Source of the DNA: Acholoe squamosa
Lineage: Eukaryota > Annelida > Polychaeta > Phyllodocida > Polynoidae
Assembly: GCA_949317995.1 (NCBI GenBank)
Contig: OX439038.1
Span: forward strand, 2,126,001 to 2,190,000
Reading direction: 5' to 3'
Length of the DNA: 64,000 nt
Shown here: piece after piece, positions 16,471-56,062 of the stretch
How positions within the stretch are numbered: the first letter of the stretch is position 1
Layout of the letters: every line of letters starts with the position of its first letter
Notes under the pieces: model-generated
Database searches by the model: none
What the model saw: only the letters and a program-made list of their open reading frames with translations
What the model was told of the DNA's origin: nothing
Translations under genes and position numbers: made by a program

Positions 16471-16492
16471 CAGTGATCCCACACCTTCCACC

Positions 16493-18148: not shown

Positions 18149-18184
18149 GATGTCACAGTGCCGATGGGCCAGTGCACTGTGACA
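18139..18184 (+). promoter_or_regulatory. Candidate -1 programmed frameshift signal at the gag/pol junction
   Basis: The seven bases GGAAAAC (18139-18145), read G GAA AAC in the gag frame, directly precede the gag TAG. Five bases later begins a perfect 11 bp stem: TGTCACAGTGC (18151-18161) pairs with GCACTGTGACA (18174-18184) around a 12-base loop. Slippery site, 5-base spacer and hairpin match the geometry of retroviral -1 signals. The heptamer is not a canonical XXXYYYZ. The pol frame is open upstream of the stop and has no ATG until beyond the protease active site. Confidence 0.7.
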
Positions 18185-23731: not shown

Positions 23732-24841
23732 ATGGGGAGACTGAGAGTTTCACCCATACTGCTAACTATGCTGTTATTATATACTATAAAACCACTTACT
23801 GCAGGCTATACACCTGTGGTGAGACAAAACATAGGAGTAGTATTCAAACCTAGCCCTCAACCATTGGTCAATGGACATACAACCACAACACTGTCGTTAG
23901 CTATCCCCTACAAGATACCTCGGGCACCCGTTACCCAAGGATCCATAAGGGATAGAATACTCCAGTTGACCACTCCTACTCTACAAGATCATACCTCTGG
24001 CCAAATTATCCAACAAGCTAAGGAGCTAGACACCTTGCTGAAAATTGCAGACAAGGAGATAAATGAAACACTAGCCTCCATCAAATTGTTCTTATCCAAC
24101 CCCATAAACACATTGGACAAGGCCAAAAGAGAGGCCATACTGGGTTTTCTAGCACCCCTGTTTCGCGGTGTGCTAGGTCTAGCCACAGTAGAAGATGTAA
24201 ACCAAGTAATGGGACAGCTCAAGAACATAGATGAAATACTAAGAAAATTTGCTAAACAGGATCAGGAAGCAGCTAGTCTCATTGAAAAGATCACAGACAG
24301 ACAAGATAAGTTTGTTAAAGCATACATCCAAGATAAGAAGGTACTGGACAGCACAATCAACACCATAGGTGACACCGTCAACCTGTGGGCCTCTAACATG
24401 TCCAGGTCACTTGACTCATATTCAAGGCACGAGAAAACTCAAAGGGAAAAAATGCAAGTATTAAATGATGCATTAATTATCATAGCAGCAAGAATGAATA
24501 CAGTTCAATCACTGCAAAGGACAAATGCAGCCCTGAGGATGCTATCATCAGGAATCCTAACCCCTGATATAGTACCACCCTCAGACCTTGCTAGATACTT
24601 AATTGACATTAATAACAAACTTAGGATTACACACCCTGGAGCACAAGTCGCAATTAATGACTTGGATTTCTATTATTCACAGAAGCTTACCTCATACACT
24701 TACTCAGCTCACCATATATATATTCATCTGGACATTATAATTCAATCTACCACCTCAACCTTCAAACTGTACCAAATGATTACATCACCCATGCCTATAG
24801 ACACACAGGAGACCCCCACCAGAGGAGTCACCTACCTATAA
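23732..24841 (+). CDS. Env-like fusion glycoprotein, baculovirus F / errantivirus type (frame-broken)
   Basis: 369 codons from an ATG in a strong context (CACCATGG). A hydrophobic signal peptide covers residues 1-25 (PILLTMLLLYTI core). Near residue 135 a basic KAKR site, possible furin cleavage, is followed by a hydrophobic Gly/Leu/Phe-rich segment that resembles the fusion peptide of F-type proteins. Next come a long heptad-like helical region (about 155-260) and a GILTPDIVPPSDLARYL block like the conserved motif after the helical region of insect errantivirus Env and baculovirus F. The frame closes at 24839-24841, and F-like sequence goes on in another frame. Position after pol fits an env gene. 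The family call rests on motif resemblance, not a search. Confidence 0.65.
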   Translation: MGRLRVSPILLTMLLLYTIKPLTAGYTPVVRQNIGVVFKPSPQPLVNGHTTTTLSLAIPYKIPRAPVTQGSIRDRILQLTTPTLQDHTSGQIIQQAKELDTLLKIADKEINETLASIKLFLSNPINTLDKAKREAILGFLAPLFRGVLGLATVEDVNQVMGQLKNIDEILRKFAKQDQEAASLIEKITDRQDKFVKAYIQDKKVLDSTINTIGDTVNLWASNMSRSLDSYSRHEKTQREKMQVLNDALIIIAARMNTVQSLQRTNAALRMLSSGILTPDIVPPSDLARYLIDINNKLRITHPGAQVAINDLDFYYSQKLTSYTYSAHHIYIHLDIIIQSTTSTFKLYQMITSPMPIDTQETPTRGVTYL

Positions 24842-24848
24842 GGATATA

Positions 24849-25244
24849 GTGGTTAAAACCTTCCCACTACCTAAGGTTATATTTACCTGGAATGGACCAG
24901 CAGTTATAACAACACAGAGAGGAGAATTTGCTTATCACCTCCCTCAGGTGATACACCTACCTTGGCGCACTAGGTTCAGTACTATACCAGCCCTTAAAAA
25001 CAAAGGACTGTACTACTCCATGCTTCTCCAGAATGATTGTGGCACCAGCCCGGTGACCATGACAGCACTGGAAAATACAACAGATATAATTATTGACGAA
25101 CACCAGGAGGAGACCGCAAGGTCAAACATGCAGACTATTGCTAATTTTCTAAAACCACCAGCCCTCCCCGGTGACTGTGGAAACAGCCTAGGCTGCCCAC
25201 AGCCTAGACTGCCCCCAGTCCACCACCAGGAAATACTGAGATGA
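24849..25244 (+). CDS. Displaced C-terminal part of the env-like gene
   Basis: A frame shifted by one base continues directly after the env stop; it is open from just after 24800. It has a few cysteines (NDCGTS, GDCGNSLGCP) and one NTT glycosylation sequon. It ends at 25244 without a clear transmembrane helix, unusual for an envelope protein; the anchor may be lost. The frame change lies between about 24801 and 24845. It cannot start independently with an ATG near 24849 (the codon is GTG). Confidence 0.5.
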   Translation: MVKTFPLPKVIFTWNGPAVITTQRGEFAYHLPQVIHLPWRTRFSTIPALKNKGLYYSMLLQNDCGTSPVTMTALENTTDIIIDEHQEETARSNMQTIANFLKPPALPGDCGNSLGCPQPRLPPVHHQEILR

Positions 25245-29809: not shown

Positions 29810-30650
29810 GGAGATGGGGTGGGGGGGGGGGTTGCTGAAAGATCAGCACAATGGATTTGCTAGATCTCGTAAAGCCTGACAAAAAAGCTAAATTAGGACT
29901 TGCTTAGTCGACCTACTGAAAATCCTCCTATACTAGCCACATATTTGGTATGACCCCAGGTGCGTCTTATAGGATAGCTGAAGTCACAGTGCACCATACA
30001 GGTGAGGCTTTTCTACTGTAGAAAAGTCCTAAAATGACCAAATTCACCTGATAGCATTTCCACAGAGAGAGAGGGCTTTTTATACATGAAGCACACCCTG
30101 TACATGAAGATTTCAGAGTGCTTTTTATATATGAAGCACGTCCTGTACATGAAGATTTCAGAGTGCCTTTTATACATGAAGCACACCCTGTACATGAAGT
30201 TTTCCGAGTGCTTTTTATACATGAAGCACACCCTGTACATGAAGTTTTCAGAGTGCTTTTTATATATGAACCACACCCTGTACATGAAGATTTCAGAGTG
30301 CCTTTTATACATGAAGCACACCCTGTACATGAAGATTTCAGAGTCCATTTTATACATGAAGCACGTCCTGTACATGAAGATTCAGAGTGCTATTTATACA
30401 TGAAGCACACCCTGTACATGAAGATTTATAATACACAAAGTTTACCGGTCTATAAGGTGTATCTGTGCAAGGTGCACCTGCTCCATTCAATATTCCTTTA
30501 TGTATGACGTCACTGTAACACTCACTAATTCCAGAGAGCTATGTTATTCCTCTACAACCCTTTTAGATCAAGAGTAGATGTTTGGCAAAATCCCATGCAG
30601 TAATGTTTTCCATTGTGTCATGTTGGCGTCCAACAGTATACTCAGCATAC
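29810..30650. repeat. Duplicated block, copy 2, with an internal 45 bp minisatellite
   Basis: Second copy of 28800-29290. Its extra length is a 45 bp tandem array inserted between GATAGCATTTCC and GTTTACCGGTCTATAAGG. Confidence 0.75.
30080..30425. repeat. 45 bp tandem array
   Basis: About eight copies of a 45 bp unit (ATGAAGCACACCCTGTACAT, GAAGATTTCAGAGTGC, TTTTTATAC). Spacing of the first ATGs is 30086, 30131, 30176. As 45 is divisible by three, frames stay open on both strands; I do not regard them as genes. Confidence 0.9.
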
Positions 30651-30752: not shown

Positions 30753-31278
30753 ACCATAATCTCCCGCATAGAAGGCGCAGCTCGCGTAGAAGGCGCACCC
30801 CCAACTCAGAGAAGGCCTTTTCACGTAGAAGGCGCACCTACCTCTTCTGGATCGACTTCTGAAAAAACCAGCGTATAAGGCGCCCCCCCATCTCACAGGG
30901 GGGCTGTTTTGCACAGAAAGCGCCTCACCCACCTCTATGAGTGCAAGCTGTCATCGGCACATGGTCGGCGTATTGTCCGCCAAGCGCCTGTACACCGACC
31001 AGGCTGCCGCGTTCAAGCTGTCATCGGCACACGGTCGGCGTATTGCCCGCCGAGCAAATCTACACCGACCGGGCTGCTGCAAAGCTGGCTCTATGAGTTC
31101 AACCTGTCATCGGCACACTGTCGGCGTATTGCCCACCGAGCACCTGTACACCGACCGCGCTGCCGCGGTGAGGGCTTTATGAGTTGATGCTGTCATCGGC
31201 GCATGGTGGGCCTTATTCCCGGCAAGACGTCGACACCTCCCAGTCTGCCGTGGTGCCTTCTACGTGGGAGATTACGGT
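30753..31278. mobile_element. CCRTAATCTCCCGCG-family TIR element (526 bp)
   Basis: Ends are ACCATAATCTCCCGCATAGA and the inverse of ACCGTAATCTCCCACGTAGA, bounded by TA. Inside are GCGTAGAAGGCGCACC iterations near both ends and four copies of a 76-87 bp repeat (AGCTGTCATCGGCACA, CGGCGTATTGCC, CTGTACACCGACC). No transposase. Confidence 0.8.
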
Positions 31279-36613: not shown

Positions 36614-36663
36614 ACCGTAATCTCCCGCGTATAAGGTGCGTCTTATACACGGGAGATTATGGT
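36614..36663. mobile_element. 50 bp hairpin made of CCRTAATCTCCC-family ends
   Basis: ACCGTAATCTCCCGCGTATA followed almost directly by its inverse, bounded by TA. It is a minimal member of the family with only the inverted ends. Confidence 0.75.
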
Positions 36664-37293
36664 ATGTACTTTCAGCTTAAACTGCTTTTACTTTTGGTTA
36701 GTCTACATAAAACACAAAGTGCTGAGTCATCATTCTGTACACTACTGACACTACACCACATGTGGACAGATCTATTCAGTGCTTCCAAATTCAGCAGCTC
36801 CACTACCAGCCCTAACACCTTTAATCTACTGGTGCCATGAATGCCCCTATGACACATCATAACTCATTCTGCTCTATGATATTATACCAGACATCATGTA
36901 CATCGTAAATCTTTCATACATCAAGAAACCTATGTTGATATTTCCAAACTTTCAACCTGTAAGACATCTGCCCCAAAAGACATACATCACAGAGCAGCCT
37001 TTTCTTGCTGTAAATCTGATCTGACAAAGTCTTTTGGCCCTCACCAACAGTCATTCAACTATGATGCACAGGACCTGGCATAGGTTTTCATCTCAAATAC
37101 AAAATTGAGTTTGGTTGGATGCATTGCATAAAAACGCAAAACCTATGGGGTCGAACATCTGTCTCACTTCACTGCTTCAACAAATACAGCTTTCAGCAAG
37201 AGCAAGTTCTACATCCTTGAACCAAATTCCCTCATTACGAAACCCGGGAAAGCCTATGTCCAATGCCCATGCATCTTGTTATTTGAGTCCCTT

Positions 37294-37537
37294 TCATGAC
37301 TCAAGGACCTCTTCTATTTCCTCCTCTCCTTCGTCATTGGGTGCAAGCTTGGCTTGCTCCTCCAAGAACAGCAGTTGGTCCACCATGAAGCAGTCATTAG
37401 GGTTCTGCACAATCTGTCTCAGGTCCCTCATAATGATGCTCTCATCGACCGGGCCCCCGTCCTCTCCAAACCTCGCCTTTTTCAGGTAGTCATATGCCTC
37501 GTCAAACTCCTCTGCACCAAGCTTCTTCTTACACTCA
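37294..37537 (-). CDS. NEK11-like exon 15 (last coding), C-terminus and stop
   Basis: Acceptor CCCCCTAG|T. Encodes [18 protein letters not shown] through [10 protein letters not shown] and TGA (37294-37296). Its frame joins only to the exon at 38055-38139. Confidence 0.85.
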
Positions 37538-39831
37538 CTAGGGGGCAGTTAAGGTGCCATCTGGTGTCATCAAAATGTACTAAATACTCTACTCTTATTC
37601 GTATCAAGCCTTAGGCACAGCAACAGATATCAAAGAGGTGTATTACTGAAATATTGATTAATAAGTACCATAATCTCCCGCGTATAAGGCGCAGCCCGCG
37701 TATAAGGCGCACCTAGAGTTTTGGAAAATTCTCAAAAAAATGAAACATTCATAACTTTGGTTCTACTGAATGAATTTTCAAAAATTAAAAAACCTATGGG
37801 TAGCTTGGGCCACCTTAGGCCCTCCTGGGCCCCATTTTGTCCTATTATGACCAAGGGGGCATGTAAGATATCAAAAGAAAGGTCTTGGTGTCCCCCTTGT
37901 GGATCCAATGAGAACTAAAACCCCCCGTATAAGACGCGCCTTATACGCGGGAGATTACGGTACATAAGTGATGATACGACTACATTAACGTCTAATAAAA
38001 CTTACTGTCTTTTTTAGTCGAAGAAACGCTTAGAATAACCATGTAAAAGGATACGCTCGGAGGTTGATAATCTTGATATGCCGTGCATGAGGCCCAAACG
38101 CACCCACAACTGTGTCATCATTGACTGTTTGTGCCTTTACTGTAGGGCAAAAAGGTATGTACATATATTTCAAGGTCTGTACACTATAATGAAGAATCAT
38201 AATTGTATTGTCAAATAATTGGCAGATCAAAACACTAAATACAAGAAAAGTTAAAAACGTGTCAGAAGCTTACTCTTTGAGACATTAAAGTTGTAAATTC
38301 TATTCATAAACCTATTAGAGACATCTTGCAAATTTTTACAACTCGCAAACCTGGGAAAATGCCTAAAACAATGGTTCTGCGAAGAGTTCCCCATTGGCTA
38401 TAACATTGTGTAACACCATCTGGGCTACAAGAGTCCTCCGAAGGAATTAGGGAGGGTCCCCACAATAATACTATGAGCACAGTATTCATTCTTTTTCTGA
38501 TATCAATAACCACCAGAATGGTTTAAAATTTCCCACACACATTTATAGGTATATTACCAGCATAAAACAATGGAAATCAATGGAAAATAGAAAGGGTTGA
38601 CTTACTTGTGTCAGACCTGTCGAGTGCATTCTGCATACAGTTAATGAGGTCACCGACCTCGTTGTCCTCTTCTTTATGAACTACAGTGGCCAGCAGCGTT
38701 CCTTCTGCCTCGTCTGAGTCTTCATCTGACATATCACTGCCCCCTTCTGGCACTTCTTCAAACTCATCCTCAAACTGTGAGTAATAGGTCTCCGCTAGAT
38801 CTGGCTTGTCAGGGATACCTAAAACAATGAGAAATGATGTGGTCTTACAACAAAGTATCTTGCAAAGGACTTGGAAAGTGATATGCTTGGTATGCTATTA
38901 CTTATTTAAAACTCATCACTAATTATGAATATGTCGCTTTTTAAGGAGCTTATACAAAAGAGCACAGGATACCCTTAATTAAGCAAAAATCACCATTGTT
39001 ATGCATGTATATCTTTGTAAATCATTAGTTCTCTCACACAGAGTAGACAAGAATGGACAGCAAACTTCCCAAAGATGTCACATCATTAAGACAGAGCAGA
39101 GACACTCAAACAGGAGGATAAACCCTCTCTCAGTTCACTGTATCTACACTTTGGTGTTTGGATCAGAAGAAGCCAAATATGGAGAGATATCAAAGAGAAG
39201 TGACATTTCACTTTGAACAGATTAGGGCCTGTGGAGTTGTACCTTATCTAATATAAGTGGATTAATAGTATGAGTGTACTATGTGTGTGCATGGCTTATT
39301 TAGGCAGTGATCAGGCAGCTACCAATCCAATCCACCTTCCCTATCCAAGTGTAGTATAACTAATGAATCAGTATCTAATCTATCCTTCTATTTCTGTCTG
39401 CTATCAAACAAACAAGAGAAACCGGTCCACGGTATGTCTATTTCTACTCCTTGCCACATCTTAAGACAACATTTACCATCTTTAAAATCTAGCGATGAAT
39501 ATGTGACATCATAGACCATGGTGTCCCTCATGGGTGTGATAGGTCGGTCGTCCCCAGACACAGTGATGTACTGAGGCGCCTGTAGGTGGTGCATCTGTGC
39601 AGGGTCTGTGTTAGAGTGACTATAACGCTGGAAGTCTCCCGGCACCGTATGTAACACGTCAGCTTCATCCTCTTCTTCCTCCTCCTCTTCTCTCTCTTGC
39701 CGCCGCCGGTGGCGGACTGCAGAGAGACCAGAATAGGCCCGGTTAGCTACTAGTTTATCTAGTGAGGTGTTATGGTATAATTTATATCTATGGTTAATGG
39801 ATAAGGGGCACCCATTATCATGACATTTGAC

Positions 39832-39869
<38 letters not shown>

Positions 39870-39882
39870 GTATATATATATG

Positions 39883-39916
<34 letters not shown>

Positions 39917-39992
39917 TATGTATATATATATAAGTATATATATATGTGTGTATATATATATGTATATATATGTGTGTATATAATATATATAT

Positions 39993-40028
<36 letters not shown>

Positions 40029-43000
40029 GCACTGAACTCTAGTGGATGAAAATTACTGCTACATTATTGTTTCTTTTAATTTTGCAAAATTATATGTCCT
40101 TTGCACTTTATTCAAATTTGCATCTTCATCTCAAAAGCATTTTAATCTTATTTCATCTGCAGCTTATGAACAAGGTTTCAACCATAGTTGTCATGGAAAC
40201 AAAGCCACTTTTCAACAACTATTATGAAACACAAAGATGTTGTTCTTTGGTTTGTGTACAAATTTGTTGTGTTCTGTGAATGGGTATTTTAACCACACAA
40301 TGGTGACTTATGGTGACTACACTAGGAACAATCTTTTCGGTATCGATGGGGTAACATGTTGTCCCTGTTTCAGGTCTTCTTATCTAACATGCATCTATTT
40401 ACATTTAATATCAGTGAGTGAGGAAAATGATTAGATTACAGATTACTTATTCAAAATGTGGTGCAAGGCTCTAATATTCTTTGAGTAATCTGGAGCATCT
40501 ATCTTTTTCTATGCAGGTGTTAACTCTAGGGATGATTTTTGAGTTGCATGATTCATTTCTGGATGTTTTGTTGCTTATATTGTACATAACAACTAAGAAC
40601 ATAAGGGTGGTGAAGGTGATCTGATCTATGTGTAATGGGGCAAGATATTCATGTGGTGTGGGATTTATTGCCTAATTCTATTCTCATCACAATGAATCAT
40701 TTAGTGAAGACTCCCTGACATTGTATCACTAACAGTGAGTAGAATCCTTAATTTCATTACGGTTACTTACGGTCTCGTCCTGTTTATATAGTGGCAAGTG
40801 TAAGTCTTTTAGTACTGCTCAAGTATTTCATACATCATATTTCATGACAAAGCATTCAAAAATACAAAAATATACATATCCTTTATAATATAAGGTTTAC
40901 AAATAAGAAAAAATAATTCTCAAAAGAGTAAAAGAAAAGGGGTCTAGTCAAGTATATTTTTGTCTGCCTACAACAGGCATTACTTTATGGCAAATATATT
41001 TGCCCTGGGGATGTAGAAACCATCAATCCTATTCCACATTATGTACATTGTCCAGCAGTTGGTTAATAACAAAGTTAGTAGGTGTTAGTACTTACACACT
41101 ACATATACAGATATAACATGTACTACTTACTGGGGGCAGTGAAGGGCCGACTGCCAAGTTCCTCAGGTTCTCTGTCAGGGTCGTCAAGCTGTAACCCAAA
41201 TAGGAAATAACTGACATAGTTTGAATCACTGCCTAATCTTACTAAACCAACTAATGTTCATGTCCAGTAAATAATTTGGCCACTTACTCTACCAAATTGA
41301 TATCAGCATGGATTTTATACCAATGGCTCACTTCCTCCTATGGCAAGCCGTTTAGGAAAACTTTCAACCTTTCAACCAAAAATCCTACCTTTCGACCTGA
41401 AATTATGCCTTTCAATCGAAAGGCATAGTTTACCTCCTGAAAAGCCGGGTTTCTCGAGTAACCTGGCCTTTCGGACAAAAGGCCTGGTGTTCTCCGACGA
41501 AAGGCAGGGTTTCATTTTCGAAAGGTAGGGTTATGAGAAAGGAAAGGCAGGGTTATCTGGTAACCCTGCCTTATGATTGGCTTAGTTATGGTCTGAAAGG
41601 CAGGGAAAAGACCGAAAGGCAGGGTTTTATTAGAAAAAAAAGGGCTTTTCAGTTGATTGGCATAGTTTTAGGGCGAAAGGCAGGGTTTCAAAACAAAAGG
41701 CATGGTTTGCTGGGCAAAAGGCATGGTTACATGGGTAAAAGGCATGGTTACGGAAACGAAAGGTAGGGTTTCTCATCAAAAAAGCAGGTTGGGTTTCTGG
41801 TCGAAAAAAAAACTGTTTTTTTGCACTTTTCCTAAATGGCTTGCCATATCCTTTAAAAGGTAACTCTCTTAGCTGGATCACTTCACATTAGCCTATTCAA
41901 TATTTACTTCTTCAAAATCAATAAATATAATGCCTTACCGCTGATTCATATGGGTTGTTGACTTGTCGAATACGCTCATATTTCTTTGTATTCAGGATGA
42001 GTTGTTTTTGTGTGGCAGCACTGAATATTGAAAGAAAAAAAAATTTAGCGTGTGATATACATCACATATGGCCCAGGATTTGGCACATATGAGTTGAAGT
42101 ACAATGCATAGAAAGAAAACATCAAAAATTCTGACAGGGCTAGTTGGAGCGTCCATGACCTACCGTAGGTGACTGGTACTATAGTGACAGTCTGTCAGTT
42201 GTCAATGGTTAAGCCTATGGAGAATAAACCCTTTATCGCTCGCATGTTTCATTGGCGAATAACTCCTCTCCTGGCGAGGTAAGCATTGCACAATATCAGC
42301 AGGTGTTAAATAAAGATCCAGATTAACCATATAAAGGCATGAGACAATGTAATTCTCCTCCATTTTGTTATTATCCAGCAGTTTCGATAGCACCGTAAGG
42401 CGATCGTCTCGCTGTCCGCCATTTTGGATTTTGATGTTCCGGGCGCGACCCCTCCTTGCTGGAAGTCGCATTTTCAACGGAGAAATGATAGATAATATTG
42501 ATTTAACTTGAAATTAATGGCTTTTTGAATATAATCCATGCATGTTTGGCAATATTAATCGAATTGAATCGAATACACCCCCTCAATTTACTGTTATAAA
42601 ATAAAATCTGACGACCGGTCACTCTGCGCGCATGTGCGAACTCGCACAAGGATGTCCTGGCTGGAGGGAGAGTGTAAAGACTAGTACATAAGGTACATAT
42701 ATATTATGTCAGAGGGCGCACGCAGTAGCTAAGAGATTGAAATCATAACAGCCTGCGTCTTCTGACTATACCATTACGTACATAGAGTCTCACACTCGCC
42801 CCGCCGGAAATGCAATAGGCATAACAAACTTATGGCGGTCTGATTTACAGGGTCGGTATATAAACGGTCTTATACCAACTTTTCCTCAAGCTATCGCGTT
42901 ACATGGACGGTCTTCCAGCCTTACCTGCGCCGCCAAAGACCCAGCAGGAGCTGGGCCAACAATGTTCTTATTTTCAATTGTGTTTTTCAAGTCTACACAT

Positions 43001-46000
43001 ATTGACCAGTAATTATTTTCCTTCTCACCTCACATATCAATGATAAGCCATGAAAAGGCTAAATAGATAAATTCAGCTTGATGACTCATTTTATCACATT
43101 GTATCTATATTGCCAAAGAAATGATATCTATCATATTTGTGAGTTTCTTTCCTAATTAAGACCTTAATGGACACTACCCACTATCATAGTCTGGTGCAGA
43201 AGTCAATCACTAAGTCTGTACCTGAGTCTTCTTGCCTCTTCGTCTGCCTTCATCTGTTTGCGGAGCCTCATCCGTTCCCGTGGTGACATGTTCTTCCACT
43301 TGGCCTCTTCTGACTCTCTCCTTAATTGTTCTACATTAGATTTCTGCTTGCTAAAACAAAAAAAAAAGGATAAACATTAATAAGTGTTTCAAAGTATCAA
43401 AGTATCAGATAAGAGAGGGTCAGGTCCAAAACAGACCAATTTTGATGTAAGAGTGACACTGTCCATCTGCTCCATGTTGATTACCTTCTTAAATCAATCT
43501 AGGATCTGCTCTGGTCATCTGTTATTATTATTTATTACACGATTTCCGTGACTCAGGGTGCTTTTCCTGGATATTCCCATCCTGATACCCGTTGATATTG
43601 CACACCATGATGCATGCATCATGACCTTTGTAAGGTGTGCTGATATCCATGGATATCAGGCACCCAGTGCCTGTTATCCATGGATATCAGGCACACCTTA
43701 CATGTCATATGTCACATGTTAAAACCTACGAGAATTTCATGGCCAGAGGTAGGGTTCGAACCCATACCCTACTGATCCCAAATCCAACTCCCTATGCAGT
43801 GCGCCACAGGGACTGACAAGAAACAGAGTGTGTTTGCCTGTATATATACAATGTACATAGTGAACAGAAAACAGGGGGGTCCCGGGCTAGTTTCCAAGAT
43901 ATATAATCTTGAAGTCTGAGTGACTTTGTCATAGGATTACATAGCGTTGGCACAAATGTTTAGAGCCATAAATATCTGCGGGGACTATCTGTTTTATTCT
44001 ACCTCTAACAAAGCATATGAAATTCATAATCAGCACTGAATCCCATATGCATGTAAGCGTGGTGTGTGGTGGCCACGTCCCCGTACACCATGCTCAAAAG
44101 AGAGCCTTCACAATTTTGTGACAACTTGCCCTACAACATTTAGCTCTAAAAAATTTCTTGGTCGATTTTCGAAATTCAAAAGCCAAAGTGATCACAACTT
44201 GAGACAAAGAACCTTATGATACCTAGATATTTAGATTTTATAATGGTCTAAATGACAACAATATATGGCAATTAACACTCCAGCGGCCAAAAATATATTA
44301 ATCTGACACTAAAACAGATTTTTCTCAGCCCAGGTTGTGAAAAAATGTTTTGCTGTTGTTATTATAGGTAACACCACTTCATGGGCATACCAGTAGCCAT
44401 ATGCCCACTGTAGTTTCAGGTTAGTAATACTTTAGGTTATTTAAGTAACTTACAGTGCCATAACAATCTGCTGACTCTCCCTGTTGATGCTGTCCTTCTG
44501 TTCCTTAGCCAGATGTTTGTCCATCATGGTATTTTTTAGAAGCTGCAAAATTATTTGAGATAATAATACTCTAATTCTTCTATATGGATCAGCAAAATTA
44601 TAACATAATATGTAGAGTTCAGATTGACTTTATCATATGTCATATGAAATGTGTTAATGAGTTTAACTCATTTCCAACAGTGTAAATCATACTCACTTCC
44701 ATTTGTTTTTCTATGAAGGGTAGTTTGAGCACCTCTGAAGCGGATGGTCGTTTGGAAGGATCTTTTTCAAGAATTCTTTAAGAAAAACAATGGAGAATAT
44801 GCTTAGTCAGAGAGGGTACAATGTGATTATACAATGGAAATTTAGTTAAGACATATTTTCTACAAAGGAAATACCTCTACAGGATAAGAAGGAAGAAGAC
44901 AAAGGTGCACTGAAATTGTGCACCACTGAGGGTTATCACACGAGGCAAAGAATATAGAGAGACTGGAAGCGTAGCTCAGAGGCCTGTGCACTACTGGTCT
45001 GTCTTATCTTCATTATCTGGGTCAACCTCTCCCCAAACTGCTACCTGACTTCCGGTTTTGAGATAACTGGTAGAATCCCCATAGGGAAGATTGTGAGGGT
45101 AAATAAAATGGCTTCTTTTCTGTATAAATTCTTTAACAACGAAATGCAAAATTTCAGTGAGTGTTCTAAAGGTATATAGGTGCACTGTGTTTGAATATTG
45201 AGGCATTTGACCCAGTAGATTCAGAGAATTTTTTGTTCTATGGACGTTCTATGTGACCAGGCATGGATATATGCAGTACAATGGATACACATTCCTCCAA
45301 TGACCTACCTTACTGTTTAATTCAAGAAATCCATGTAAGCCTTTGCATTGATGTATAGGCCTATAAAATTGGTTTCTGCAAATACAGTAGGCTATTCGAT
45401 GTGAATAAAATTGCCATTGGCACTGGTAATTAGTCTCCATGTGCTTAGTATTAGTATTGGCGAAATCCTCCTTTATTTTGATAATCCATGCAAAATATTT
45501 AATAGTAGTACATTGTATTCATTGGACTAGACTCTAATCCCTCTCTCCAGCTCAATGCATGTACAAAAACTGATTCCCAAGTGGTGCCAGTACATGGATA
45601 CATGTAGTTGTGGCCCAGTCTCTAGGCATCAGCCTCCACACCTGTGGGTGTGAACACTCCACACCTTGAGGTGTGATGAGTGATGCCCCAGGTTAATTGC
45701 CACCTTTGATGTCGACATCTAAGCCACACCTCTAAAGTACCTAATGTTTGTTGAAAGGGGGGGGGGGGTATTTTGGTGAAAAAAATTCCTAGGGATGTCA
45801 TCAATATTCTCAATATCTAAATATCAGTAACAATAAAATGTTGAATATCGTATAGACATTGCCAATATATCAATATAATTATAAATACCCATTTCTTTCA
45901 TTTTTCACAAAATGCTTAGTGCGAAAATGGACAGAAGTGACAAATCTGGGTATAGTTAGTATTAATTTAAAGCTTGGGATATAAGCACAGGACAAGAGGA

Positions 46001-49000
46001 CCCCCCACCCCCCTTAGACAGAGGACTGGTGGGAAGATCTCATTTTGCACCTTATAATTGTAGTTAGCAAAGACAATCTATCTTAGGCTTCTATTCTTTT
46101 CTACAGGTTCTATAACCAAGCCTGTGACTTGACCCATACATCATAGCCCCCTCTGACTCCTAGATTTATATACTAACTTATTTATGGTAAGATTTATGGC
46201 ACTTATCATACCTGCAAAATACAAGCCGTCTACAGATTAGAATGAAAACTAACCCCCCTCATTTTTTTAGCTCACATGGTAAATGGGGATAGAATGAGAT
46301 ATCATTGTATCTGGACGGATATGCCCAGAGAGAACCTGAGAAAATTGAGGAGTTGCAGGTATGACTTAAGCCATTTTTTAATGTGTTAAGATATCACAAT
46401 AAATCGTGATATCGAGACCAAAAATCGCAATAATTGCCATAGGAAAAAAGTGGATGTCAAGAAACAGGACAAAGAAACTCTTGGTTTGGGCTATGCATGA
46501 TGGGTTGGGGAGAGGGGAGTCCGGGGGGGGGGGGAGGAGACTTGACTTGCTACAAATCTAAAAACCTTTGGTCCAATATTTCCTGAGAAAACTGACATTT
46601 TCATTACCATTTATATCAGCCTGGGGGATTGCACTGCCAATCACAAAACCGGAAGTGGAGTAGCAGTTTGGAGCTGGGTTGACCTAGATAATGAACATAT
46701 TGACCTAGAAACGGTAGCACGCACTACAGATACTTCTATTCTCTCTGCACGAGGTAAAGCCAAGTGTGATAAACCTATTGTTTTTTTTTCTTCTTTTTTT
46801 TCTCTTAATTTTTCTGGGTGAGAGTAATGGATTTTCGAGAAATCAAACAGTAAAATAAGCCCTCGGCTTATATTAGTAACAGGACTACTGTTGTCCACCC
46901 GGAAAATCTTTTGTGGAGGGGCTGCCCCCCCCCCTAGAAATTAGTTTTTAATTATTTTATAAGATTCTCAATCTTATAAATATAATTTGAATTGATAATC
47001 TTTTATTAATTCTTCAATAGTACTTTTACACTGCACCAGGGTGGTATAACTGTACATATTTCCAGACCCCCTGGGGCCTGGGGCCACCAAAAGGCAATTT
47101 ACATTAATTATTCAGCACAAACAGATGCCTGATGGTTCCCCAAAGGAAGAAACTGCTCATTTGTGACTTTGAACCAGTTTCCAAGTCACAACCCATGGTA
47201 ACCAGTTACTATGGATGCTGTAACTACCTCCCCTTGGAGATAAATACACAACTGCCAGTTGCCTAGCAACAGTATTCCTGATGACAACACGTCCCCAGGG
47301 CAAAACTGTCATTCAGAGTGGTTGCATCGTGCCAGTCAGTCGCACCCACCCTAGCTTCGTCTTGAAGAAGAGTGATAAACCTTTGTGGTGGCAAATTTGA
47401 GTGCTCCGTTGTGTCTATCTCAAGTAAATTTAGTCATTTATTTGGCATTAGAAATGAAGTCACCATCAGCTAAGTGAGCATTTGGGATTCTGTAATTGGC
47501 ATAGGGCTATCACACAGGGGTTTGTGATACGGGACTACTTGGTTAAACCTATGGGGCCATCATACTCAACATGATATAGATTACGATATAGATATGTAAC
47601 ACTTAGGCTCACGCTTGGAAGACGCCGTGCAGTTCCTCACTGTAACCCTCAGGCCAGTCGGGTAAGTTTCCTTCTACAATTTTGTACATGACACCCATCA
47701 GGCTCTGCCCCTCAAAGGCATGCTTCAACGTTACCATCTCATACAGCATACATCCAATGGACCTGGAATTAGACAACCATGTCTCAGGAGGTTAATGTAT
47801 TACTTTAAATCTTTTTTTCATATTCTATGTAAATAATAGATTATACCCCTACTATTGGTGCAGGTATTACCTGGTATACTGGCTTTGGTCAATATCCTAG
47901 TCTCTACATCTCAACATAAAATTTATATTGTTTAAAAATGACATTGTTGGCTTTCAATACTAATTCTGGTACTATAGATATTTTAAATCAAGGTAGGAGA
48001 ACACCTTTTATTTGTACCTGTATTGCCAAAAAAAAAGGTACATAATTTATAACATAAATATTGGCAGTATTATAACTGTACCTACCAGACATCAGACTTT
48101 GAGTTATACCCCTCATGTTTCAGTACTTCAGGGCTCATGTAGTATGGCGTGCCTGTGAAGGTGGTCGCCATGTCAGTCGTACCCATCAAGATACGCGAAA
48201 TACCAAAGTCACCAATCTTTATCATGTTATTCCGCAAAAAGATGTTTCTGAAAAGGTAAGACCAATGAGGTTTAGGTGAATGTTTTTGATGCAGTATTGG
48301 TCCATTTTTAACACCACATCACTTACAGATTTTAACACCTGCGTAACCCTGGCCCTTGTTTGAGATATGTTTTTTAGTGTGTTTTTTTTATTTATTTCAT
48401 AACTGGTTACATTGTAAGATAACTGTTCAACCCATGTATTGAAGCCTCTCCTACCCCAAGCCCTTAATTTCACTTATTTGAGATCCTGGCACTTAAACAG
48501 TACTTTGTTTTATATGGTGTAACTTTGTTTAAATGGATATCTTTTGATTTTTCAAACCTCTTTTGAGGGATTCATAAATTTTTACCTTGTTTTGAGGTCC
48601 CTGTGCAACACGCGTCTGAAAGTAAAGGGCATAGTTCATCTATATTTTAGGAACTTACATAAGTAGAATATGCTTATTATAATGTAGTACAGCATACAAA
48701 ATATTTTCCACTCTTCTTTCTTGTCTACTATGGCTGAAATGTTTGTTGACAACCTAATATTTCACTATAACTTTTATCAATTATTGTTTAAAAGTTTATT
48801 GACAGCCTAATCAACAATAGCAGAAAGTAGATTAGTTTTCTTCATGAATTGCCCCTACCTGCTGTGCATGTACTGTACAGCGAGTAGCAGCTGTATGAGC
48901 CACTCGATGACGATGGCCTCCGGGAGGCGCTTCTTGGTCTTTTTACACTGCTGTATACGCATATCCAGGTCTCCACCCTTAAATCATAACCAGTGTTTTA

Positions 49001-52000
49001 ATATAATATTGATAATGAAAGTGATCTAATATATACATAAACCTTCTTCTGTGCTGATAGGTACAACATATATAGTGTCTCATCTGGATTTTAAACTGTA
49101 GAACAATATAAAAGTGACCAATATTTGACCTGACCTTGTTGGACCAGCCTGACATTGGGTGTGCCTTATATATGAGTTAATTGGTGAATATTATGGAATA
49201 ATAACTAACAGTATAACAACAAGACAATTTCTGTCATGAAAATATGATGGGATTCTACCCAGAAATATCAAGCAAGTTAGATATTATTGGATATGAATAC
49301 TTAGGGCCTAAAAATTTTAAAAAGAGTTACTAATATATCATTTTCATTTAGAGAACTATGCATGAGAGCCGCTTTAATCTAAAGAGTTCCCGGTTGTATA
49401 AAAACACCCCGGGTCTTACCTCACAGAACTCTCACAATACAGACCCCCCCCCACCATAAACACCCCCAGATCTTACCTTACAGAACTCTTTCACAATACA
49501 GACCCCCCCACCATAAACACCCCCAGGTCTTACCTTACAGAACTCTTTCACAATACAGACCCCCCACCATAAACACCCCCAGGTCTTACCTCACAGAACT
49601 CTTTCACAATACAGACCCCCCACCATAAACACCCCCCGGTCTTACCTCACAGAACTCTTTCACAATACAGACCCCCCCCCCACCATAAACACCCCCAGAT
49701 CTTACCTCACAGAACTCTGTCACAATACAGACCCCCCACCATAAACACCCCCAGATCTTACCTCACAGAACTCTTTCACAATACAGACCCCCCACCATAA
49801 ACACTCCCAGATCTCACCTCACAGAACTCTTTCACAATACAGACCCCCCACCATAAACACCCCCAGATCTTACCTCACAGAACTCTTTCACAATACAGAC
49901 CCCCCACCATAAACACTCCCAGATCTTACCTCACAGAACTCTTTCACAATACAGACCCCCCCCTCCATAAACACCCCCAGATCTTACCTCACAGAACTCT
50001 TTCACAATACAGACCTCCCCCCTCCATAAACACCCCCAGATCTTACCTCACAGAACTCTTTCACAATACAGACCCCCCCCCTCCATAAACACCCCCAGGT
50101 CTTACCTCACAGAACTCTTTCACAATACAGACCCCCCACCATAAACACCCCCAGATCTCACCTCACAGAACTCTTTCACAATACAGACCCCCCCACCATA
50201 AACACCCCCAGATCTTACGTCACAGAACTCTTTCACAATACAGACCCGCCACCATAAACACCCCCTGATCTTACCTCACAGAACTCTGTCACAATACAGA
50301 CCCCCCACCATAAACACCCCCAGATCTTACCTCACAGAACTCTTTCACAATACAGACCCCCCACCATAAACACTCCCAGATCTCACCTCACAGAACTCTT
50401 TCACAATACAGACCCCCCACCATAAACACCCCCAGATCTTACCTCACAGAACTCTTTCACAATACAGACCCCCCACCATAAACACTCCCAGATCTCACCT
50501 CACAGAACTCTTTCACAATACAGACCCCCCACCATAAACACCCCCAGATCTTACCTCACAGAACTCTTTCACAATACAGACCCCCCACCATAAACACCCC
50601 CAGATCTTACCTCACAGAACTCTTTCACAATACAGACCCCCCCACCATAAACACCCCCAGATCTCACCTCACAGAACTCTTTCAGAATACAGACCCCCCA
50701 CCATAAACACCCCCAGATCTTACCTCACAGAACTCTTTCACAATACAGACCCCCCACCATAAACACCCCCCGGTCTTACCTCACAGAACTCTTTCACAAT
50801 ACAGACCCCCCACCATAAACACCCCCAGATCTTACCTCACAGAACTCTTTCACAATACAGACCCCCCCACCATAAACACCCCAGGTCTTACCTTACAGAA
50901 CTCTTTCACAATACAGACCCCCGTCACCATAAACACCCCCAGATCTTACCTCACAGAACTCTTTCACAATACAGACCCCCCACCATAAACACCCCCAGAT
51001 CTTACCTCACAGAACTCTTTCACAATACAGACCCCCCCACCATAAACACTCCCAGATCCTACCTCACAGAACTCTTTCACAATACAGACCCCCCCACCAT
51101 AAACACCCCCAGATCCTACCTCACAGAACTCTTTCACAATACAGACCCCCCCACCATAAACACCCCCAGATCTTACCTCACAGAACTCTTTCACAATACA
51201 GACCCCTCCACCATAAACACCCCCAGATCTTACCTCACAGAACTCTTTCACAATACAGACCCCCCACCATAAACACTCCCAGATCTTACCTCACAGAACT
51301 CTTTCACAATATATACCCCCCACCATAAACACCCCCAGATCTTACCTCAAAGAACTCTTTCACAATACAGACCCCCCCCACCATAAACACTCCCAGATCC
51401 TACCTCACAGAACTCTTTCACAATACAGACCCCCCACCTTAAACACCCCCAGATCTTACCTCAAAGAACTCTTTCACAATACAGACCCCCCACCATAAAC
51501 ACCCCCAGATCTTACCTCACAGAACTCTTTCACAATACAGACCCCCCACCATAAACACCCCCAGGTCTTATCTCACAGAACTCTTTCACAATACAGACCC
51601 CCCCACCATAAACACCCCCAGATCTTACCTCACAGAACTCTTTCACAATACAGACCCCCCACCATAAACACCCCCCGGTCTTACCTCACAGAACTCTTTC
51701 ACAATACAGACCCCCCACCATAAATACCCCCAGATCTTACCTCACAGAACTCTGTCACAATACAGACCCCCCACCATAAACACCCCCAGATCTTACCTCA
51801 CAGAACTCTTTCACAATACAGACCCCCCACCATAAACACCCCCAGATCTTACCTCACAGAACTCTTTCACAATACAGACCCCCCACCATAAACACTCCCA
51901 GATCTTACCTCACAGAACTCTTTCACAATATATACCCCCCCACCATAAACACCCCCAGATCTTACCTCAAAGAACTCTTTCACAATACAGACCCCCCACC

Positions 52001-54158
52001 ATAAACACTCCCAGATCTTACCTCACAGAACTCTTTCACAATACAGACCCCCCCTCCATAAACACTCCCAGATCCTACCTCACAGAACTCTTTCACAATA
52101 CAGACCCCCCCCACCATAAACACTCCCAGATCTTACCTCACAGAACTCTGTCACAATACAGACCCCCCCACCATAAACACTCCCAGATCCTACCTCACAG
52201 AACTCTTTCACAATACAGACCACGCCCCCTCCATAAACACCTCCAGATCTTACCTCACAGAACTCTTTCACAATACAGACCCCCTCACCATAAACACCTC
52301 CAGATCTTACCTCACAGAACTCTTTCACAATACAGACCCCCCCCTCCATAAACACCCCTAGGTCTTACCTCACAGAACTCTTTCACAATACAGACCCCCC
52401 CACCATAAACACTCCCAGATCTTACCTCACAGAACTCTTTCACAATACAGACCCGCCCCCTCCATAAACACCCCCAGATCTTACCTCACAGAACTCTGTT
52501 ACAATACAGACCCCCCCCCACCATAAACATCCCCACCGTAATCTCTCGCGTAGAAGGCGAAGCCCGCGTAGAAGGCGCACCCCCAACTCAGGGAAGGCAG
52601 ATCCGCGTAGAAGGTGCATCTGCTGCTCCTGAGTCTAATATTTGAAAAACCCGCGTATAAGGCGCCCCCCCCCCACCAACTCACAGGGGGGCTGTTTCGC
52701 GTAGAAGGCGCCCCCTCCCCAACCCCCCCGCCCTCACCCTCACTATTGTACACCTCCCGGTATGCCGCGCTGCTGGCGCTATGAGCTCAAGCTGTCATCG
52801 GCACACGGTCGGTGTAATGCCCGCCGAGCGCCTGTACACCGACCGGGCTGCCGCGCTGCTGGGTCTATGAGTTCAAGCTGTCATCAGCGCATGGTGGGCC
52901 TTATTCCCGGCGAGCGTGTCGACACCTCCCGGTCTGCCGCGGTGCAGGCTCTATGAGTTCAAGCTGTCATCGGCACACGGTCGGCTTGAACCCGCCGAGC
53001 ATGTTGACACCTCCCGGTCTGCCGCAGTGCTAGCTCTATGAGTTCAAGCTGTCATCGGCGCATGGTGGGCGTACACCGACCGGCAATAAAAACGGACTTT
53101 TCAGTCCATTAGTGAGGGTATTGTTGCAATAAAAACTGAATCTTTAATTTTGGCCTATTTTTGGGGTGTTTTCCCAATTGAGATGTTGGAAAAACCCACG
53201 TATAAGGCGCACCCCCAACTCAAGGCAATTACCCTCCCGCGTATAAGACCCAGCAGCATTTTGTTTGGCGTAGAAGACGCGCCTTCTACGCGGGAGATTA
53301 TGGTAGGTCTTACCTCACAGAACTGTCACAGTACAGACCCCCCTCCATAAACACCCCCAGATCTCACCTCACAGAACTCTGTCACATTATATACCCCCCT
53401 CTATAAACACCCCCAGATCTTACCTCACAGAACTCTGTCACAATACAGAAAAACTCCCCCTCCATGAAGCTGTCGTGGAACTTGACGATACCTGGGTGGT
53501 CAAGGTTACGCAGTAGGTTAGCCTCATGCATAGCATCCACCGTCTCATCTGGCTGCAGTTCCCCCACCGAGATCTCCTTCAGCACTTTCCTACAGGTAAA
53601 GTTTGAACACAAGTTAATTATCTAAATCTAGACGATAAATCACATGCGATACAGACTTATAGACGAAAGAAGGCCAAAACCTGCAACATACAGGGCTTCT
53701 AGCAAGGTCTATTATGTGTCTTGTTACTGAAGTAGTTAAATATCTCAATACACTTGTCAAATACATATGTGTCAGAACAATTTACTTCCACATAGGATTG
53801 TCTTCTTGAAAACAGAATTTACATATTCACATGGCTTTGATTTTTTTTTTTTCAAACTCTTAGTGGCTTCTGTATTCTCCGGAAGTCAGAATGTGACTTT
53901 TATGCTTGGTGCTGCCTATACATGAAGTATTAGAGCAGTAATGACAATAATATACAAAAACCAATTACAACCTCTGTAATGATTAACTTACTGGGTTTCT
54001 TTGGGATCTTTGCATTTTAAGTCTGTCACAAGCCATGCTGTCCCAAAGTTGCCACTCCCAAGTCTTTTCTCCACCTGATACCGGTTAGCCAAGATTCGCT
54101 TACTGGAATCTTTCACCGGCTTGTCACGAGAACGAGGGATCTTTTTTGGTAGAGGCAT
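37294..54158 (-). CDS. NEK11-like serine/threonine protein kinase, complete coding region over 15 coding exons
   Basis: Exons joined in order from 54158 down to the stop at 37294-37296 give 2013 nt, 670 residues (human NEK11 is about 645), with consistent phases. The kinase domain has the glycine loop GSGNFG (34-39), catalytic Lys60 (VLKEI), Glu78, HRDLK with Asp157, DFG with Asp174 and GTPYYMSPE (193-201). Motifs typical of NEK11 follow, such as [21 protein letters not shown], an acidic Glu/Asp-rich region, [20 protein letters not shown] and a C-terminal [19 protein letters not shown] block. NEK11 acts in DNA-damage and cell-cycle checkpoint signalling in vertebrates; the role here is inferred. 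Odd points: a 30 nt exon holds the HRD motif, and a long minisatellite copies a splice junction. A non-coding first exon probably precedes it (about 56942-57100). ATTAAA on the minus strand at 36819-36824 could be a poly(A) signal. Confidence 0.93.
37667..37961. mobile_element. CCRTAATCTCCC-family TIR element (295 bp), in a NEK11-like intron
   Basis: Ends ACCATAATCTCCCGCGTATA and the inverse of ACCGTAATCTCCCGCGTATA with TA on both sides. GCGTATAAGGCGCA iterations lie near the ends. The interior is the same sequence as 54898-55190 in opposite orientation. Confidence 0.85.
38055..38139 (-). CDS. NEK11-like coding exon 14
   Basis: Acceptor CCTACAG|TAAAGG. Encodes [15 protein letters not shown] then [11 protein letters not shown]. 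The donor (CGAGC|GTATCC) is weak but is the only one that joins in frame to the last exon. If unspliced, the frame stops nine codons later. Confidence 0.75.
38606..38818 (-). CDS. NEK11-like coding exon 13
   Basis: Acceptor TTTTAG|GTATCC, donor ACAA|GTAAGT. Encodes [20 protein letters not shown] and the acidic [14 protein letters not shown] segment. Confidence 0.9.
39477..39716 (-). CDS. NEK11-like coding exon 12
   Basis: Acceptor CTCTGCAG|TCCGCC, donor GATG|GTAAAT. Encodes [20 protein letters not shown], then [20 protein letters not shown] and [20 protein letters not shown]. Confidence 0.88.
39833..40029. repeat. (TA)n microsatellite with TATG interruptions
   Basis: About 200 bases of TATATA with scattered G and C, within a NEK11-like intron. 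Confidence 0.95.
41131..41188 (-). CDS. NEK11-like coding exon 11
   Basis: Acceptor GGTTACAG|CTTGAC, donor CCCA|GTAAGT. Encodes [19 protein letters not shown]. Confidence 0.85.
41341..41846. mobile_element. 506 bp TIR element with GAAAGGCAGGGTT iterations
   Basis: Ends TGGCAAGCCGTTTAGGAAAA and inverse (TTTTCCTAAATGGCTTGCCA), flanked by TA. The inside repeats CGAAAGGCAGGGTT-like and inverted AACCTTTCGACC-like motifs. It lies in a NEK11-like intron between coding exons 10 and 11. No transposase. Confidence 0.8.
41939..42020 (-). CDS. NEK11-like coding exon 10
   Basis: Acceptor ATATTCAG|TGCTGC, donor AGCG|GTAAGG. Encodes [20 protein letters not shown] and VNNPYESA. Confidence 0.88.
42205..42477 (-). 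CDS. Unrecognised 90-residue reading frame in a NEK11-like intron (tentative)
   Basis: Starts [20 protein letters not shown] and ends at 42205. The start region is GC-richer than the surrounding intron and contains CAAAATGGCGGAC, like a YY1 site often found at promoters. On the plus strand GGCGAG|GTAAGC at about 42278 looks like a donor of an exon in the other direction. No domain recognised; it may be chance or a nested promoter or gene. Confidence 0.2.
43222..43350 (-). CDS. NEK11-like coding exon 9
   Basis: Acceptor GTTTTAG|CAAGCAG, donor CTCAG|GTACAG. Encodes [20 protein letters not shown] and [20 protein letters not shown], a block diagnostic of NEK11. Confidence 0.92.
43530..43830 (-). 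mobile_element. tRNA-derived SINE
   Basis: On the minus strand a tRNA-like head has an A-box (TGGCGCACTGC, 43797-43807) and a B-box (GGTTCGAACCC, about 43752-43762). A body with ATCCATGGATATCAGGCAC inverted motifs and a tail AATCGTGTAATAAATAATAA follow. The tail motif is shared with the element at 63862-64000. Confidence 0.7.
44454..44542 (-). CDS. NEK11-like coding exon 8
   Basis: Acceptor TTTTGCAG|CTTCTA, donor CACT|GTAAGT. Encodes [20 protein letters not shown] and [10 protein letters not shown]. Confidence 0.88.
44697..44775 (-). CDS. NEK11-like coding exon 7
   Basis: Acceptor TTCTTAAAG|AATTCT, donor GGAA|GTGAGT. Encodes [20 protein letters not shown] then IEKQME, the last part of the kinase C-lobe. 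Confidence 0.92.
44776..47612. other. NEK11-like intron 6, no nested gene seen
   Basis: 2.8 kb of A/T-rich intron. Contains a G-tract at 45757, a poly-pyrimidine run near 46785 and a CACCACTGAGGGTTATCA motif at about 44922 that also occurs near 11100. No exon is evident. Confidence 0.5.
47613..47762 (-). CDS. NEK11-like coding exon 6
   Basis: Acceptor AATTCCAG|GTCCAT, donor CAAGC|GTGAGC. Encodes [20 protein letters not shown] and the following C-lobe. Confidence 0.93.
48086..48247 (-). CDS. NEK11-like coding exon 5, DFG and activation loop
   Basis: Acceptor CTTTTCAG|AAACAT, donor GTCTG|GTAGGT. Encodes [20 protein letters not shown] and the [16 protein letters not shown] activation-loop end. 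Confidence 0.95.
48586..48615 (-). CDS. NEK11-like coding exon 4, 30 nt microexon with the HRD motif
   Basis: Acceptor CTTTCAG|ACGCGT, donor ACAAG|GTAAAA. Encodes RVLHRDLKT, the catalytic loop. Both splice phases fit its neighbours (phase 2 in, phase 2 out). Confidence 0.9.
48859..48977 (-). CDS. NEK11-like coding exon 3
   Basis: Acceptor GATTTAAG|GGTGGA, donor AGCAG|GTAGGG. Encodes [20 protein letters not shown] and [19 protein letters not shown]. Confidence 0.93.
49395..52534 (-). repeat. Splice-donor minisatellite: ~55 copies of the exon 2/intron 2 junction of the NEK11-like gene
   Basis: Units of 56-59 bp (length varies in C-tracts). On the gene strand each contains TCTGTATTGTGAAAGAGTTC, TGTGAG and GTAAGATCTGGGGG, that is the last ~26 nt of the exon at 53424-53589, its 5' splice site, and about 30 nt of intron (GTGTTTATGGTGGGG). 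Most copies read AAAGAG where the exon reads ACAGAG; a few keep the exon base. Spacing example: AGATCT at 49753 and 49809. The array lies entirely within the intron downstream of the true exon. Confidence 0.95.
52535..53304. mobile_element. CCRTAATCTCCC-family TIR element (770 bp) inserted in the minisatellite
   Basis: Left end ACCGTAATCTCTCGCGTAGA, right end inverse of ACCATAATCTCCCGCGTAGA. GCGTAGAAGGCGC iterations lie at the ends and four ~85 bp internal repeats (CAAGCTGTCATCGGC...) lie inside, as in 30753-31278. Minisatellite units continue on both sides, so it inserted after array growth began. Confidence 0.85.
53305..53423 (-). repeat. Exon-proximal units of the splice-donor minisatellite
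   Basis: Two diverged units (with GTCACAGTACAGAC and GTCACATTATATAC) lead directly into the true donor at 53423. They keep the exon-like TGACAGAGTT form and look like the oldest copies. Confidence 0.85.
53424..53589 (-). CDS. NEK11-like coding exon 2
   Basis: Acceptor CCTGTAG|GAAAGT, donor TGTGAG|GTAAGATCTGG. Encodes [39 protein letters not shown] and [11 protein letters not shown]. Carries the catalytic lysine and the helix-C glutamate. Confidence 0.95.
53992..54158 (-). CDS. NEK11-like coding exon 1 with start codon
   Basis: ATG at 54156-54158 begins [17 protein letters not shown] and runs to the glycine loop [11 protein letters not shown]. Donor CCCA|GTAAGT. The exon probably begins at 54212 (acceptor CAATTTCAG|AAAG), giving a 5' UTR part. 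Confidence 0.92.
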
Positions 54159-54897: not shown

Positions 54898-55190
54898 ACC
54901 CTAATCTCCCGCGTATAAGGCGCGTCTTATACGGGGGTTTTTAGTTCTCATTGCATCCACAAGGGGGACTCCAAGACCTTTCTTTTGATATGTTACATGC
55001 CCCCTTAGCTATAACAGGATATATGGGGGCCCAGGGGGGTCCATGGGGCCCAAGTTACACATAGGTCTTTGAATTTTAAAAAATTCATTAAGTAGAACCA
55101 AAGTTATGAATTTTTCATTTTTTGAGATTTTTCCAAAACTCTAGGTGTGCCTTATACGCGGGCTGCGCCTTATACGCGGGAGATTATGGT
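54898..55190. mobile_element. CCRTAATCTCCC-family TIR element (293 bp)
   Basis: Left end TACCCTAATCTCCCGCGTAT, right end inverse of ACCATAATCTCCCGCGTATA. The interior matches 37667-37961 in reverse orientation. Confidence 0.85.
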
Positions 55191-55312
55191 ATGTTACTTG
55201 TCAGATGTGTGGAAATGGACAAAATATTGCAGTAGTAGATCCACTGCTCAGCAACAGATCAGCGATTCACCAGGTCTGAAAATTGGACAGAATTTGGTTT
55301 TCTAAACGACTA

Positions 55313-55487
55313 CAGTCAGCCCTTGCTTCCCCGAATTTGGAAAATGCAAGGAAAAATATCTGAGGAAGCAAAATATTCGAGGATTCAAGTCCAAATATAA
55401 TAGACTATATAGAAAAGTTGCAAAATTTTTGTCTGAGGTAGTGAGGGATCTGAGGAATTAAAGGGTCGAGGAAGTGAGGGCTGACTG
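55313..55487. mobile_element. 175 bp pogo/Tigger-like MITE
   Basis: Ends CAGTCAGCCCTTGCTTCC and GAAGTGAGGGCTGACTG, flanked by TA. The CAGT..CCCT..CC.CGAA end pattern is that of pogo-type elements. No transposase. Confidence 0.7.
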
Positions 55488-55821
55488 TATTTGACAGGAT
55501 GGTTCGACAGTTCCCCTCATCTGTTTTAATCTTGTATTTGCCCCCGCACCCCTTTGATTTGTTTCTGAGTTCATATTTCCTGTTAAATTCGGGGGCTGTG
55601 CCCCTAAATTCCCCCCGTGCATATTTTCTGTCATTACTCCTTTAATCTCAAAGTTTATGATACTTTCTGAAAACTTTCTTCTTTGCATTAATCATATTAC
55701 ATTATTCAAAATAAAAATGGGGTGAAAATCATATACCAAGATGACAGAAACAACCACATCTATGAAAAAGTAAATTCTGTCGAAACGTCCCAAAAATCTG
55801 TCCCATAGTCTTAATGGAACT

Positions 55822-56062
55822 ACCGTAATCTCCCACGTAGAAGCTGCGCTGCGTGTATAAGACGCACCCCAAACTTAGCACATGCATTTTCGCGTATAAG
55901 ACGCACCTCTTAGCCTTAGGTACCAATTTTGTAAATTCACTACATTTCTATAGTAAAAGTACCCCTCGTATAAGACGCACCCCCAATTTCAGTACATCCT
56001 ATAAGACTCCCCAGCATTTTGTTTGGCATAGAGGACGCGTCTTATATGCGGGAGATTACGGT
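55822..56062. mobile_element. CCRTAATCTCCC-family TIR element (241 bp)
   Basis: Left end ACCGTAATCTCCCACGTAGA, right end inverse of ACCGTAATCTCCCGCATATA, flanked by TA. Internal ATAAGACGCACC iterations. Confidence 0.85.

Follow-up and report, generated by a model that had tools for sequence, protein, structure and literature searches.

Judged by its sequence, the tandem array in intron 2 of this annelid NEK11 gene is a minisatellite of the 'mirage' type, built on an exon/intron junction. In the one assembly analysed the gene carries 58 exon-2 donor junctions, i.e., the real donor plus 57 copies. We consider it likely that the array grew by passive slippage and is tolerated, the most upstream donor presumably being chosen and the copies presumably being spliced out. 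The mirage architecture as such is already known; new are the annelid phylum, a second gene with such an array and, measured against the compared cases, the copy number.

The host gene and its junction array

The window, i.e., the whole stretch of DNA analysed (64,000 nt; G000:C4:2126001-2190000), belongs to a 1.48-Gb assembly of 63 contigs, which was the genome searched. It contains a NEK11 gene on the minus strand, extending from 54158 to about 37342. The features are:

53992..54158, minus strand: NEK11 coding exon 1, from the ATG; donor phase 2
53424..53589, minus strand: NEK11 coding exon 2 (166 nt); donor phase 0; the repeat probably derives from its last ~45 nt
48978..53423, minus strand: host intron, intron 2 (4446 nt), GT...AG, phase 0
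53313..53423, minus strand: two proximal repeat units beside the real donor; unit 1 contains an in-frame TGA
52532..53307, no strand assigned: 776-nt element (~0.8 kb) whose 28-nt ends are inverted copies of each other (89% complementary); 86-bp repeats inside
49402..52535, minus strand: main array, spacing mostly 56-60 nt, 55 donor-bearing copies
48859..48977, minus strand: NEK11 coding exon 3, in-frame continuation EFCE|GGDLD
37342..48615, minus strand: remaining NEK11 exons, i.e., seven exons and four C-terminal match blocks
48615-48586, 48247-48086, 47762-47613, 44775-44697, 44542-44454, 43350-43222 and 42020-41939, minus strand: these seven exons

In a sequence-based exon model, ten exons with GT/AG borders throughout join into one open frame of 391 codons; this marks exon 2 as real by sequence. 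The joined frame matches the protein kinase domain PF00069 at 8.7e-63, and four further C-terminal blocks align in order with Nek11 proteins. At the EFCE|GG junction 21 of 22 compared homologues have no insert; the sponge row did not match the search word. The best named matches are Lamellibrachia (72%) and Capitella (69%); B. belcheri has 61% identity. A tree of 23 rows (the window plus 22 hand-picked from 120 listed matches) unites the window with Lamellibrachia, Capitella and three further rows, a group of six supported at 100/99. Support within this group is weaker (91/89), and the annelid Owenia is placed elsewhere. Amphioxus as the host is ruled out by the tree, in which the gene groups among annelids. 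The NEK11-like identity proposed in the initial annotation is borne out. A further species check with a receptor-like ORF, whose hits carry the Pfam labels PF01094/PF13458, brought up six proteins. Scans of the window with Rfam (gathering threshold) and for tRNAs gave no matches.

The structure of the array is firmly established in this assembly. Of 59 sites returned by a junction pattern scan, AAA|TGAAAA lies outside the array and was discarded as spurious, so that 58 remain. The first intron base at the real donor is 53423, the adjoining copies are at 53367 and 53313, and the junctions of the main array run from 52484 down to 49419. The initial annotation had described about 55 junction copies, all with intact donors and directly downstream of the genuine one. 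The copies are real, 57 beyond the donor, yet GT is retained at 57 of the 58 junctions, and only two copies adjoin the donor while 55 follow past a 776-nt stretch. The unit length of 57 bp needs correction as well, because the commonest period is 56: among the 57 intervals between junctions, 56 nt occurs 31 times and 57 nt 14 times, and TRF reports period 56, 55.2 copies and 94% matches for 49402-52535.

Of the 58 donors, 42 are GAG|GTAAGA, 6 GAG|GTGAGA and 5 GAG|GTAGGA; the rarer forms are AAG|GTAAGA (3), GAG|ATAAGA (1) and GAC|GTAAGA (1). GTAAG is consequently present at 46/58 junctions (42 after GAG, 3 after AAG, 1 after GAC). The U1 duplex energy is -9.6 kcal/mol at 42/58 junctions, the real donor included, and -9.3 kcal/mol or better at 56/58. 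Nine other NEK11 donors range from -5.4 to -11.2 kcal/mol, a comparison which omits three further positions, i.e., rough block ends. A genome-wide search with 23 nt of the junction gives 22 exact matches. All of them are in the array and its source exon, so the array is not a dispersed satellite.

The 776-nt element interrupts one unit, without a clear target duplication by eye. Its end motif, CGCGTAGAAGGCGC, occurs 31 times in the window when up to 3 mismatches are allowed, versus 0.75 expected. A family with these ends is found in the window at 30765-31266, 36626-37949, 52532-53307 and 54910-56050; two copies have the 86-bp inner repeats.

Origin and history of the repeat unit

The derivation of the unit is most evident in the old-type units, i.e., the 9 of 56 full units with A at column 23. 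They read TTTATGGAGGGGG immediately before TCTGTATTG. The end of exon 2 reads TTCATGGAGGGGG, a few T-rich letters, and then TCTGTATTG; intron 2 begins with GTAAGATCT. Among 4007 other 30-nt windows of the gene none attains the local alignment score of the old-type unit, whereas 2 of 2000 shuffles do. The alignment of the majority-type (T) unit is weaker, its score being reached by 28/4007 windows and 48/2000 shuffles. From the old-type alignment to exon 2 it follows that the unit most likely combines about 40 nt of exon with about 16 nt of intron, the exonic part probably stemming from 45 nt of which 5 were lost. The earlier claim that the unit spans the exon/intron border agrees with junction scan and unit alignment; the partition given for it, with 26 nt exonic and 30 nt intronic, is probably wrong. 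We take TTTTTATACAACC, beyond the far end of the array, as old intron.

The exon form ACAGAG is present at 7/58 junctions, exon included, and AAAGAG at 49/58. The main array therefore grew mostly from a changed copy, as had been suggested. Mean unit similarity is flat with distance (0.885-0.903 at lags 1-25), and the array contains a single exact repeat of at least 200 nt (229 nt at lag 569). Both observations are what mixed-up slippage or exchange would be expected to give. Block-wise growth was rejected because there is no lag signal. The two proximal units have similarities of 0.74 and 0.75 to the others, versus 0.886 among the remaining units.

The history we propose would begin beside the donor with a tandem duplication of about 45 nt of the exon 2 end and about 16 nt of intron, during which some 5 nt were lost. 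The unit types show that the original was then outgrown by a form with AAAGAG and ATGGT, the units beside the exon staying old-style; the inverted-repeat element split the array.

Does selection act on the donors of the array? Over the 56 full units, gaps excluded, 16 changes are located in the 8 donor columns and 65 in the 48 others, i.e., 2.0 versus 1.35 changes per column (hand count from the column table). The donors are therefore not specially preserved. There is no sign that they are kept, nor strongly that they are purged.

A second junction array and the genomic background

A search of other genes of this species, which the initial annotation had advised, yielded one positive, the locus L074 with an ankyrin-type exon:

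C1:1699039-1699279: L074 ankyrin-type exon, 241 nt with one open frame; phase 0

The exon matches 49 proteins with E values of 1e-3 or lower; the best match has 91% over 83% of the query. It weakly matches ankyrin repeats (Ank_2 at 5.8e-4, below the Pfam cut-off; ankyrin chains in PDB). The repeat unit consists of the last 33 nt of the exon, matched at 30/33 letters, and the donor with 11 nt of intron. Behind the real donor 54 copies follow, spaced exactly 44 nt; GTAAGG is present at 54/55 junctions, and a stop 21 nt past the real donor precedes all copies. A second gene with the same architecture indicates that the process is recurrent in this genome.

Donor motifs were counted as closely spaced triples. 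AGGTRAG triples 30-60 nt apart number at least 17977 versus at least 4915 for the reversed motif (3.7-fold), and CAGGTRAGT triples 20-50 nt apart at least 2480 versus at least 333 (7.4-fold); these are clustered triples, not arrays, and the totals may be dominated by a few big arrays. Six donor arrays at the start of C1, among the matches listed, were examined on the upstream side. One is a mirage, L074; by eye no exon is evident at the other five, the L072 stretch beginning inside its array. Eight ORFs from L069, L070, L071 and L073 had no Pfam match except one at chance level (E 0.11). By eye, about 15 further donor arrays are among the matches listed. Distant donor-like arrays at C1:37158584, C1:119650810, C1:125725005 and C2:4859452 share CAGGTGAGTAA and most of them CAGGTGAGTAACTC; these are perhaps one dispersed family rather than separate mirages.

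As a counter-sample, kinase-exon loci of the same genome reaching about 500 nt past the match were surveyed by self-comparison (at least 22 nt at 80% or more) and TRF. A repeat crossing the exon border was found at 0/40. The stretches of L039, L045, L062, L067, L068, L029, L036, L043, L046, L052, L055, L057 and L060 were inspected, and L042 was judged from its TRF rows. TRF repeats are present in 12/40 loci; in L039, L045, L062 and L067 clear arrays lie within the intron, separated from the exon by about 130-205 nt. Thus, exons in general are not commonly affected by the process.

Such a background invites the view that coincidence is at work: in a minisatellite-rich genome an array would occasionally include an exon edge, exon ends being no special seeds. 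Minisatellites cover on average 3.8% of 20 10-kb stretches (18 with round coordinates plus the 2 window flanks, one of which is all N), and the kinase survey, with tandem repeats in 12/40 loci and none across a border, agrees with this view. Against it stand the unit, which is the exon end itself, the second gene built alike, and the excess of donor-motif triples over the reversed motif, though these are clustered in arrays. We regard coincidence as rather unlikely; it is compatible with tolerated slippage. The bolder notion that splice donors are preferred minisatellite seeds in this annelid lineage, with ~50-copy arrays in many genes, is likewise rather unlikely. The 57 copies in one gene and 54 in another, together with the 3.7-fold and 7.4-fold motif excesses, are compatible with it; the kinase-exon loci and the five of six donor arrays in which no exon was seen by eye argue against very common seeding. 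If true, an exonised copy could be a route to new introns or exons.

Donor choice, coding consequences and known parallels

How would a spliceosome cope with such a row of donors? Human F7 intron 7 provides a model. Excerpts of PMC6627357 describe 37-bp repeats with the real donor in the first and highly similar repeats following; according to experimental evidence given there, splicing normally takes the most upstream donor only. The copy number is given as variable, and no figure is stated for the exonic share of the unit. Both annelid arrays share this feature, a real donor in the first repeat ahead of its look-alikes. By analogy, tolerated slippage in NEK11 would imply that the most upstream donor closes the 166-nt exon and that the array leaves with the intron. 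Since the U1 pairing of the copies equals that of the real site, donor strength does not explain the choice.

Reading exon 2 past the real donor leads to a TGA after 13 codons, within unit 1. This in-frame TGA precedes 57/57 copies, i.e., any copy leads to the same protein cut after 124 residues and none (0/57) offers an open frame into exon 3. No copy can add codons for this reason. Use of a copy would place the stop inside the kinase domain and leave a message that is short or destroyed, which argues that the array is tolerated rather than used. The unit consensus has stop codons in all three frames; hence the stop in unit 1 need not be selected and may be of chance origin.

The same facts could be read as regulation. 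A cluster of 'poison' donors would, when a copy is used in some tissue or state, cause a premature stop and lower the NEK11 output, and the strength of 56/58 donors (-9.3 kcal/mol or better) together with the position of every copy behind one stop would suit this purpose. Yet the donor columns are no better preserved than other columns, and a stop is expected within a few units in any frame, which makes such regulation improbable.

Another proposal concerns the growth of the array. Instability driven by R-loops or G-quadruplexes is known from immunoglobulin switch regions, and a G-rich sense strand might act likewise here. The sense strand of the NEK11 array has a GC skew of 0.76 over 3.1 kb with 110 G-runs of at least 3; G4Hunter reaches 1.2 or more in 35.5% of 25-nt windows versus 0.9% in the rest of the gene, and the RNA fold z-score of a 301-nt piece is -3.8. 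The L074 array, however, has a skew of 0.10 and still 54 copies; therefore G-richness is not needed. The canonical G-quadruplex was rejected, as no four-run motif with loops up to 7 or 12 nt was found in the NEK11 array. We rate a driving role of such structures as highly improbable. Finally, the initial idea that shifted donors lengthen the protein with repeat-coded residues, about 19 codons per unit as in a coding VNTR, could appeal to the phase 0 junction and to donors after GAG in most units, but with every copy behind the stop and a commonest period, 56, that is not a multiple of 3, it is refuted on this assembly's sequence and deserves practically no credence.

The likeness to amphioxus mirages, pointed out in the initial annotation, is supported by excerpts of PMC3087553 and PMC3902484. 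These describe mirages in Adh3, the globins BflGb6 and BflGb9, troponin C and PGBD5, with units of 10-160 bp; boundary units of BflGb6 escape homogenisation, RT-PCR suggests normal splicing, and somatic instability is mentioned with reference to the Adh work. Both annelid arrays share with them tandem units comprising exon end, splice site and adjoining intron, and splice signals retained in many units (GT at 57/58 NEK11 junctions, GTAAGG at 54/55 in L074). The differences are as follows. The host is an annelid and not a cephalochordate, a matter of where mirages were reported and not of structure. The annelid arrays have 57 and 54 copies, whereas these excerpts give 3-6 units for BflGb6 and 2-7 for PGBD5. 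Both annelid arrays are on the donor side only, whereas amphioxus mirages are described on both sides. For amphioxus the same excerpts report work on splicing and on somatic change, while the annelid arrays are known from the sequence of one assembly.

Among the literature matches listed, no annelid precedent with a unit containing an exon end was found. The nearest are the minisatellites in intron 1 of earthworm metallothionein genes, with mean monomers of 178 and 181 bp near short exons (PMC12783039). They are annelid, large and intronic, but the excerpted text makes no mention of an exon end within them. In human segmental-duplication genes, tandem repeats at exon-intron boundaries were proposed to form new introns; in the excerpts of that source the units average 30 bp, four times repeated, half of them in coding sequence (PMC2812944).

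Two large annelid mirages suggest that the process is wider than lancelets, the main source of earlier descriptions. The arrays are natural tests of how the spliceosome chooses among dozens of near-identical donors in a row, and also of the proposed contribution of boundary duplications to intron gain.

The window holds further repetitive and coding elements. At 1-9293 a large array with some 150 copies of 56-bp and 37-bp units runs past the left end, where the flank L009 is N. A 45-bp array of 8 copies at 30070-30427 has several frames open on both strands. By eye, a Ty3/gypsy-looking retroelement occupies 16457-25244 on the plus strand with ORFs of 563, 1493, 382 and 147 aa; the 20-bp array beside it (15668-16476) and a 21-bp motif recur in L013. 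Elsewhere in the genome, a 316-aa kinase-like ORF occurs 19 times among the matches listed, many near contig ends (e.g., C1:127042068, C3:92949167, C6:57860, C7:588), and looks like a subtelomeric gene family.
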